Assembly (NCBI RefSeq): GCF_026004055.1
Contig: NZ_BPIJ01000001.1
Location: forward strand, 930,001-994,000
Source: Meiothermus sp.
GTDB taxonomy: Bacteria > Deinococcota > Deinococci > Deinococcales > Thermaceae
DNA length: 64,000 bases
Reading direction: 5' to 3'
Made by a program: the position numbers and the translations under genes
The notes under the pieces: generated by a model
Told to the model about the DNA's origin: nothing
What the model saw: the letters and a program-made list of their open reading frames with translations, nothing else
The model's database searches: none
Shown: piece after piece, positions 8,663 to 11,299 of the stretch
Layout: the number at the start of each line of letters is the position of its first letter
How positions within the stretch are numbered: the stretch's first letter is position 1

Positions 8663-9654
8663 GTTGCAATCCCCTTGCGGGGCTATTTTTTTGCGACCGT
8701 CAGCGATTAAGATATACGGTAGCGGAAAATACGTTGTTGCAATCCCCTTGCGGGGCTATTTTTTTGCGACACCTGGGCGGTGGTGGTGAAGCGCACCGTC
8801 TCAGGGGTTGCAATCCCCTTGCGGGGCTATTTTTTTGCGACTGGTCAATCAGGGTCGTCGAGTCGCTGCAGGTTCCTGTTGCAATCCCCTTGCGGGGCTA
8901 TTTTTTTGCGACTGGAGCGGGTGGTGAAGGCCCCGGGTGGGGCCATCCTCGTTGCAATCCCCTTGCGGGGCTATTTTTTTGCGACGCAAATCCTCCTAAA
9001 CGAAGTAACGTCAAAGGAGTGCTACGACGTTGCAATCCCCTTGCGGGGCTATTTTTTTGCGACTTGAAGAAGACCTTTATATTCATGTATTTATAAGTTG
9101 CAATCCCCTTGCGGGGCTATTTTTTTGCGACTCCTGATTCTGCAATATCTTTTAGAATCTCTAATAAAACGTTGCAATCCCCTTGCGGGGCTATTTTTTT
9201 GCGACTTGCCAGAGGTAGGACTTTACAGCCGGCCCGAGGCTAACTAGTTGCAATCCCCTTGCGGGGCTATTTTTTTGCGACTTCTATTACCTATATTTAT
9301 AAGAATGTAGCAGACCTATACGTTGCAATCCCCTTGCGGGGCTATTTTTTTGCGACGTGCTGGACACGAAGCCGCCACAGTCCACGCCTAGCAAGTTGCA
9401 ATCCCCTTGCGGGGCTATTTTTTTGCGACATTAACTCTGTAAAAGAATTTATCTTGAATAAGGTAGAAGAAGTTGCAATCCCCTTGCGGGGCTATTTTTT
9501 TGCGACTTAGAGACGACACAGTATGTAAGAAACTAAAAAAGAAAGTTGCAATCCCCTTGCGGGGCTATTTTTTTGCGACTCGATGTGCCAAACCGCTCTG
9601 GCCTAGGATCACTACCAGCGTTGCAATCCCCTTGCGGGGCTATTTTTTTGCGAC
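8663..9654 (-). CRISPR. Orphan CRISPR array, 14 identical 35-bp repeats, 13 spacers
   Basis: Repeats start at 8663, 8736, 8807, 8878, 8951, 9029, 9097, 9171, 9247, 9322, 9395, 9472, 9545 and 9620. On the + strand each begins GTTGCAATCCCCTTGCGGGG and ends CTATTTTTTTGCGAC; the inner CCCCTTGCGGGG forms a hairpin. Spacers are 33-43 bp. Read on the minus strand the repeat ends ATTGCAAC, matching the 8-nt crRNA tag type (ATTGCRAC) I recall from Thermus, so transcription is probably leftward with the leader at 9655 and beyond. A promoter in the leader agrees. No cas gene lies in the window, so processing must rely on cas genes elsewhere; the repeat resembles Thermus type III-associated repeats. Confidence 0.98.
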
Positions 9655-9719
9655 AGCATACCCCGTTAAGTGCCGTTCTGTACAGGGCTGGTGCAGGGGG
9701 TATTTATGAGAAACAGCAG

Positions 9720-9744
9720 TTATCCACAGGCAGCCTGTGGATAA
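9720..9744. promoter_or_regulatory. Perfect inverted pair of DnaA-box sequences in the CRISPR leader
   Basis: TTATCCACAGG, a 3-nt centre CAG, then the exact complement CCTGTGGATAA. Each arm contains TTATCCACA, which fits the bacterial DnaA-box consensus TTATNCACA. It lies 65 bp from the first leader-side repeat. There is no T-run on either side, so it is not an intrinsic terminator. Function is inferred only. Confidence 0.6.
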
Positions 9745-9862
9745 CTCTCCAAAAAGTGCGGTTTGTTGCGATGAATGCTTACAAAATTGCACTTTTGGAT
9801 TTTTTGTGGCGATGTTTTGCGACAAGCATCGCTAAAACTTTTTGTCAAGAAGCTCGATGGAA

Positions 9863-9922
9863 GATTCCAACAGGCACATTATAGCATTTTGCGCAAAACA
9901 TAATGGGTGTTTTGTTGGAATC
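9863..9922. promoter_or_regulatory. 60-bp nested palindrome over the CRISPR leader promoter
   Basis: Outer arms GATTCCAACA (9863-9872) and TGTTGGAATC (9913-9922) are perfect inverted repeats. The centre is the 12-bp palindrome TTTTGCGCAAAA (9887-9898). The gaps on both sides are exactly 14 nt, so the whole 60 bp is symmetric about one point. The promoter -10 lies inside it, which suggests an operator for a dimeric or tetrameric regulator. Confidence 0.6.
9878..9886 (-). promoter_or_regulatory. Extended -10 promoter of the CRISPR array
   Basis: On the minus strand TGCTATAAT: a perfect TATAAT at 9878-9883 preceded by the TGn extended -10 element. No good -35 is seen, as expected for an extended -10 promoter. 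A start near 9871 would give a leader transcript of about 215 nt before the first repeat. Confidence 0.6.
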
Positions 9923-10074
9923 GCTTCCGCACCGTTTGGAAGGGCATTTAGTTTAGCGATTCTGCTCTGGGGGGTGCGTTTGCTATGGTTTTTTTGCGGG
10001 GTGAATAGTGCGTAACGCTACCTGTAACAGCGGCAAGGGGCGAGAAAACGGCGGGCCGGGTTTGGGGTTGCTAG

Positions 10075-10412
10075 TGGTCTGGTAACAAAATACGCAGTAT
10101 GGGGTTTAGCCTTCAGAACGCGCCGTGTCTCGTAAACCTGGGCCTTCGGTGCCTTGCCTGTACGGTCATGCAAAAAGCACCCCACCCCCCTTCGCCCCTT
10201 TCCTCCCCTACTGCGTAGGGGAGGCCAGGTGGGGTGGCTGACCTGGCCCTTCACGCAGCGGATTGGGGGCCTTGCCTGATACCCTCCCCCACCCTCCCTA
10301 CGCGGTAGGGAGGGCGTTTTTAGGCCATCTCGGGGGCCGAAGTGGGATGGAATCTCTACATCGATGTATTCGGGGTACGGTACAAAACTTCGGAAATTTA
10401 GTTACCAGACCA
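10075..10412 (+). mobile_element. MITE family B, copy 1
   Basis: 338 bp with terminal inverted repeats TGGTCTGGTAAC, flanked by CTAG on both sides (10071-10074 and 10413-10416), a 4-bp target duplication. Inside are two strong hairpins. One is CCCTCCCTAC, loop GCG, GTAGGGAGGG followed by CG and TTTTT at 10292-10321, shaped like an intrinsic terminator. Near-identical copies lie at 16438, 35284 (reversed) and 49048. It encodes no recognisable transposase. Copy C1 begins right after its target duplication. Confidence 0.9.
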
Positions 10413-10416
10413 CTAG

Positions 10417-10705
10417 TGGACTGGTAGTCTGATTTACGTCACTTTGCCCTTACAAATCCAAACGTGAGCACCTTGTTATTGCGAGGAGGCCCCCGCCGCC
10501 GAAGCAATCCAGATAGCCTTGTGTAGGCTGGCCGGGGCAGAGATTCTGTCGCGTCTCCCACCCATAGGGTGAGGCGTAACGTACCCGGTACAGCAAAGTT
10601 CGTTGTACCGGGTATTCGTGGGAGTCCGCTCTGGATTGCTTCGCATCCTGCGGATGCTCGCAAAGACGGGAGAAGGCCGGCGTCACATACTTTGTTACCA
10701 GAGCA
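10417..10705 (+). mobile_element. MITE family C, copy 1
   Basis: 289 bp with ends TGGACTGGTAGTCTGATTTACG and CACATACTTTGTTACCAGAGCA, which match the family B termini but enclose a different core. Flanks are CTAG (10413) and CTAA (10706). The right flank contains the stop codon of the molybdo-oxidoreductase gene. Related copies: 44579, 49391 and 60514. Confidence 0.88.
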
Positions 10706-11299
10706 CTAATCGCTGAAGCGTTCTTCTTTCCAGGGGTCGCCCCGGCGGTGGTAGCCGTTCACCTCCCAGAAGCCCAGCTCCTCTCTATCCAAAAACTGAA
10801 GCCCGCGAACCCACTTGGCGCTTTTCCAGGCGTACAGGTGCGGCACCACCAGGCGCAGGGGGCCGCCATGCTCGCGCGGGAGCGGCTGCCCAAAAAGGGT
10901 ATGGGCCAGCAAGTTTTGCTCTAGCAGAAAATCGTCTAGGGTAAGGTTGGTGGTGTAGCCGCCGTAGCAGTGGACGAGTACCGCCCGGGCCTGGGGTTTG
11001 AGCCGGACTTGCCGCATCAAGTCTGGCACGCGAATACCGCTCCACTTCACATCTAGCTTGCTCCAGCGGGTCACACAGTGAAAGTCGGCGGTCAGGTCGG
11101 ACTGGGGTAGGGACATCAGCTCGGCCCAGCTCAGGGTTTGGGGCTCCTCTACCTGCCCCGAAATCTCGAGGCGCACCTCTTCCGGGCGCACGGTGGGGGT
11201 GGGGCCGTAGGTGAGCACCGGGAATTTCTCGGTGAGCACCTGGCCGGGGGGTACGCGCTCGGTGTCCACGCTTTTAGGCTTGAAGAAGTTGCCAAACAT
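10706..11299 (-). CDS. YuiH-like sulfite-oxidase-fold molybdopterin oxidoreductase
   Basis: 197 residues from the ATG at 11299 (a longer GTG start at 11347 is possible). Oxidored_molyb fold: the cofactor-ligand cysteine is in TADFHCVTRWS (about residue 75), with GGYTTNLTLDDF and GGPLRLVVPHLYAWKSAKW as further family motifs. The C-terminus GYHRRGDPWKEERFSD looks complete. No twin-arginine signal is present, unlike MsrP, so a cytoplasmic location is likely. The natural substrate of this branch is not known. The stop codon lies in the flanking tetranucleotide of MITE C1. TATCCT sits 6 nt before the ATG. Confidence 0.85.
   Translation of the reverse strand: MFGNFFKPKSVDTERVPPGQVLTEKFPVLTYGPTPTVRPEEVRLEISGQVEEPQTLSWAELMSLPQSDLTADFHCVTRWSKLDVKWSGIRVPDLMRQVRLKPQARAVLVHCYGGYTTNLTLDDFLLEQNLLAHTLFGQPLPREHGGPLRLVVPHLYAWKSAKWVRGLQFLDREELGFWEVNGYHRRGDPWKEERFSD

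Follow-up and report, generated by a model that had tools for sequence, protein, structure and literature searches.

IHF-dependent leaders of CRISPR types I-E and I-F contain a site for a host protein whose distance to the first repeat is fixed. In such leaders IHF is required for correct integration, as reviewed in PMC9048733. Among type III leaders, the comparison was made with those of Thermus (repeat GTTGCAA...GCCCCGTAAGGGGATTGCGAC); in T. thermophilus the type III arrays are transcribed, except for the one whose leader was lost (PMC7515739). Pairs of DnaA boxes have been described in E. coli, where a genome-wide study found that DnaA prefers boxes 2–3 bp apart, with the consensus TTATCCACA (PMC11317965). 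We found no open-access paper linking DnaA with CRISPR leaders. The leader described here lies in a 64,000-nucleotide stretch of Meiothermus sp. DNA, the whole of which is referred to as the window. It shares with the Thermus type III leaders the same extended -10, a start-site hairpin, CTTGAAA located 28–29 nt past the -10 in Thermus, and the block TTTCTCA(T/C)AAA, whereas the Thermus leaders have neither TTTTGCGCAAAA nor a DnaA-box pair. It is the DnaA-box pair that sets this leader apart from the known kinds. As in IHF-dependent leaders, a predicted site for a host protein keeps its distance from the first repeat, but the site is of the DnaA type and about 65–90 bp from the repeat, and the genome has no IHF pair: a search for genes of the two IHF subunits recovered one HU/IHF-family gene only. 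Like the double boxes of E. coli, the two boxes are close together and match the consensus, but they are inverted, 6–9 bp apart and placed inside a CRISPR leader.

The CRISPR array of the window (8663–9654, minus strand) consists of 14 repeats, which read GTCGCAAAAAAATAGCCCCGCAAGGGGATTGCAAC on the minus strand, separated by 13 spacers. It is transcribed leftwards, with the leader on its right side, and is a satellite array: the window contains no cas1, and the genome's three cas1 genes are all located away from the array. The conserved leader, about 250 bp long (9655–9905, minus strand), abuts the first repeat directly, on the 5' side of the array transcript. It is homologous to about 38 leaders of related genomes, collected from the genus and two sister genera and then aligned, as well as to a second leader of the same genome; the homology search returned no match in Thermus-like genomes. 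The comparison bears out the original prediction that this is a CRISPR leader and that transcription of the array proceeds on the minus strand. The second array, on contig C2 of the three-contig assembly, has a repeat 91–92% identical and a leader 78% identical to those of the window. It is immediately preceded by cas10/csm1, csm2, csm3, csm4, csm5, cas6, a Csm6-like gene and cas1; a further Csm6-like gene lies beyond this set. Since leader and repeat recur beside the csm/cas6/cas1 genes on C2, the window leader belongs to a type III-A array family. Named loci with the same leader family are those of Meiothermus rufus, M. luteus, M. taiwanensis and Meiothermus sp. The leader end CTTAACGGGGTATGC (9656–9670, minus strand), with 94% identity, adjoins the first repeat and is the probable docking end for Cas1-Cas2.

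A 60-bp nested palindrome in this leader had been proposed as a symmetric operator. On the minus strand, GATTCCAACA (9922–9913), TTTTGCGCAAAA (9898–9887) and TGTTGGAATC (9872–9863) are separated by 14 nt each, and all three blocks are symmetric about 9892.5. Letters and symmetry around the extended -10 are as originally described; the range then given, 9655–9930, does cover the whole leader, but the palindrome itself extends only from 9863 to 9922. Perfect 12-bp palindromes number 18 in the window, versus 20 expected, and the one at 9892.5 is alone among them in having an outer symmetric run of at least 8. Given this centre, the probability of an outer run of at least 10 within the next 29 positions is about 4e-5 in DNA of the same composition, by a post hoc calculation. 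The nested palindrome exceeds single-sequence chance, though it was picked after the fact.

The outer arms keep neither their sequence nor their symmetry in homologous leaders. The upstream arm (9913–9922, minus strand) is unconserved, at 64% identity, and column identities of the two arms are 0.64 and 0.70, versus 0.67 in far-upstream DNA. In 32 distinct leaders, all ten outer pairs are present only in the window, eight in one sister leader (L041) and one to six in the other 30, with an average of 3.8; the C2 leader of the same genome retains two. Pairing of each leader's own arms is in slight excess over cross-pairing (3.8 vs 3.1), and by the count over the named structure 61.6% of cells are paired, versus 56% in shuffles and 57% after a slide by one column. 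Because the arms are unconserved across homologous leaders, the 60-bp operator is refuted at the level of sequence comparison; lack of conservation of the two 10-bp arms in an alignment of related leaders is also what the original prediction had named as evidence against itself. In L041, one of the changes is compensatory (A-T to C-G). The outer arms may form a small clade-specific site in the window and L041.

The extended -10 TGCTATAAT (9878–9886, minus strand), with a predicted transcription start at about 9871, has column identities of 0.94–0.95 for TGC and TATAAT, so the minus-strand element noted previously is retained in homologous leaders. No consensus -35 was found upstream of it. The inner palindrome TTTTGCGCAAAA (9887–9898) fills the promoter spacer with 98% column identity in 36 leaders and is near-invariant across three genera, its symmetry being broken in relatives that carry TTTTGCACAAAA, TTTTGCGCAAAG or TTTTGCGCAAAC; it is absent from the Thermus and f5 leaders examined. 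We read this 12-mer as a part of the core promoter, namely the spacer beside an extended -10 that lacks a -35. Given that the outer arms are unconserved in related leaders, the palindrome region is probably an ordinary promoter.

The downstream arm TGTTGGAATC (9863–9872, minus strand) is the 5' half of a hairpin, TGTTGGAATCTTCCATC, at the predicted transcript start (9856–9872, minus strand). The hairpin arms vary in sequence yet still pair in most relatives; the stem is weakened by one mismatch in the window and is weak in several other leaders too. For the segment between the -10 and CTTGA in 38 distinct leaders, including those of Thermus and f5, the mean stem is 4.6 bp versus a maximum of 3.6 in 500 shuffles, and the minimum free energy is -10.5 versus -6.0 kcal/mol in shuffles. 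A count in a fixed register is weaker because two registers occur. We infer that this hairpin protects the 5' end of the pre-crRNA. It is followed by a CTTGACA or CTTGAAA block (9843–9849, minus strand), located 26–29 nt past the -10 in Meiothermus-type, Thermus and f5 leaders. CTTGACA was also considered as the -35 of a second promoter and rejected, there being no conserved -10 at 16–18 nt.

Conservation, positions, covariation and the shared cas-linked leader make it probable that the 60-bp palindrome is a composite of three unrelated things rather than one operator, within a leader that also has a box pair likely bound by DnaA. The conserved extended -10 promoter with its near-invariant spacer TTTTGCGCAAAATGC would start pre-crRNA synthesis at about 9871 on the minus strand, and the short hairpin at the extreme 5' end of the leader RNA, which includes the downstream arm, would have its protective role there. 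The unconserved upstream arm would match the downstream one through coincidence or recent drift, and the inverted perfect DnaA boxes, at a fixed 88–91 bp from the first repeat, would be the DnaA sites. The original proposal of a dedicated dimeric or tetrameric regulator that controls pre-crRNA transcription from the nested palindrome has in its favor the perfect symmetry in the window, the eight pairs of the one sister leader and the near-invariance of the inner 12-mer; set against the unconserved arms, down to two pairs in the other leader of the same genome, the broken 12-mer symmetry in several leaders and the absence of the 12-mer from the Thermus leaders examined, it is very improbable. 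A search of the genome for a regulon of TTTTGCGCAAAA gave just two further exact matches, both in coding stretches, and this likewise argues against such a regulator. It also bears on a narrower version, in which protein binding is limited to the inner TTTTGCGCAAAA and a leader-specific activator or repressor occupies the -10/-35 spacer. This version accounts for the invariance of the 12-mer in three genera without a good -35 and for its near-confinement to leaders: across 18 genomes of the genus almost every TGTTTTGCRCAAA site belongs to one of these leaders, and the six other matches have no leader context, five of them being inside open frames of at least 90 aa and one (C2:104268) not. However, there is no regulon, the symmetry is not strictly retained, and a spacer element of the core promoter explains the invariance equally well, which leaves the narrower version unlikely.

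The invariant symmetric element of this leader is a different one, missed by the original prediction: two perfect inverted DnaA boxes, TTATCCACA-N7-TGTGGATAA (9720–9744), 90 bp from the first repeat. Both boxes match the consensus and the dnaA-linked 9-mer, of which nine exact copies are found beside dnaA in the same genome (C2:512230-512440). They are conserved as boxes and not as background, with column identities of 1.00 and 0.99 versus 0.65 for the 7 bp in between. The region is covered by 40 Meiothermus-type and f5 leaders; every one of them has the pair, and in 38 both boxes are perfect. The distance from the pair to the first repeat is 88–91 bp in every leader measured, and that to the -10 is 117–134 bp, varying between families. 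The inverted pair is present in 30 of 111 genomes of the class, and within the genus it hardly occurs outside these leaders; a genome search with the reversed control pattern gave zero matches. When contigs were scanned for a box pair and a repeat-like start, Meiothermus was the only source, among the matches listed, of repeat arrays that immediately follow the pair. The pair is absent from the Thermus type III leaders examined. It is contained in leaders of G095 and G108, two genomes of another family than Meiothermus and probably Trueperaceae-like. There are five such arrays in G108; the pair is 88–89 bp ahead of the repeat in those measured, and CTTGACA and mostly also the hairpin come in the same order. 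In the G108 leaders (L290–L294), a third DnaA box, in one case with a single mismatch, is found about 30–40 bp upstream of the inverted pair. Cas typing beside one f5 array (L295) revealed housekeeping genes only. As a candidate terminator, the box pair was listed as terminator-like and then rejected, being without a clear T-run and without covariation.

DnaA likely binds the inverted pair at 9720–9744, and its role at the leader may be in spacer integration or in transcription control. The constant distance to the repeat and the variable distance to the -10 make it more likely that the pair is tied to the insertion point than to the promoter. It is possible, if still doubtful, that DnaA at the pair would bend or bridge the leader and help Cas1-Cas2 to find the leader-repeat junction in place of IHF. 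The fixed position relative to the repeat, the identity of the boxes with the 9-mer clustered beside dnaA and the single HU/IHF-type gene, hence no IHF heterodimer, are consistent with this role. Pointing the other way, E. coli DnaA prefers pairs 2–3 bp apart, unlike the inverted boxes here at 6–9 bp, and Thermus type III leaders lack the boxes, yet two type III arrays of T. thermophilus acquire spacers (PMC7515739), so the boxes are not universally required. More tentatively, DnaA in the Meiothermus-type and Trueperaceae-like type III leaders might position or time spacer integration, coupling CRISPR memory to the replication state. We are similarly hesitant about DnaA acting at the pair as a roadblock to transcription or as a switch that links pre-crRNA to replication, or being titrated there. 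The boxes are about 125 bp inside the predicted transcript and DnaA is a known transcription regulator (PMC8203912), but the fixed distance is to the repeat and not to the promoter, and titration would make such a position unnecessary. Finally, the pair could be an RNA hairpin of the leader transcript that matches DnaA boxes incidentally. A 13-bp stem is predicted in RNA; however, its arms never co-vary, the deviating leaders L043 and L073 are uncompensated and the middle freely loses pairing, making this explanation improbable.

The palindrome is unremarkable, but the class of leader that holds it is not. Its best-conserved parts across two Deinococcota families are exact DnaA sites, the promoter core and the leader end, and the spacing between the DnaA sites and the place where spacers are inserted is constant. 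If DnaA acts at the leader, a new host factor would be added to type III adaptation or to the control of crRNA, and CRISPR would be directly tied to the replication cycle. Outside these leaders, three loci of G000 (L080, L081 and L083, at C2:541989, 655131 and 905539) contain clusters of two to three direct DnaA boxes, apart from the dnaA-linked cluster; these are possible regulatory or titration sites. Another locus, L099 (G003, C3:537775), has three DnaA boxes in an apparent methyltransferase coding stretch and represents an inverted pair outside CRISPR leaders. Near the leader, positions 10071–10417 of the window are occupied by a MITE-like element of about 345 bp with 21-bp terminal inverted repeats (CTAGTGGTCTGGTAAC...), present in about 30 copies in the genome at about 97–99% identity. 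A second, more variable unit (10417–10708) is often found alongside it.
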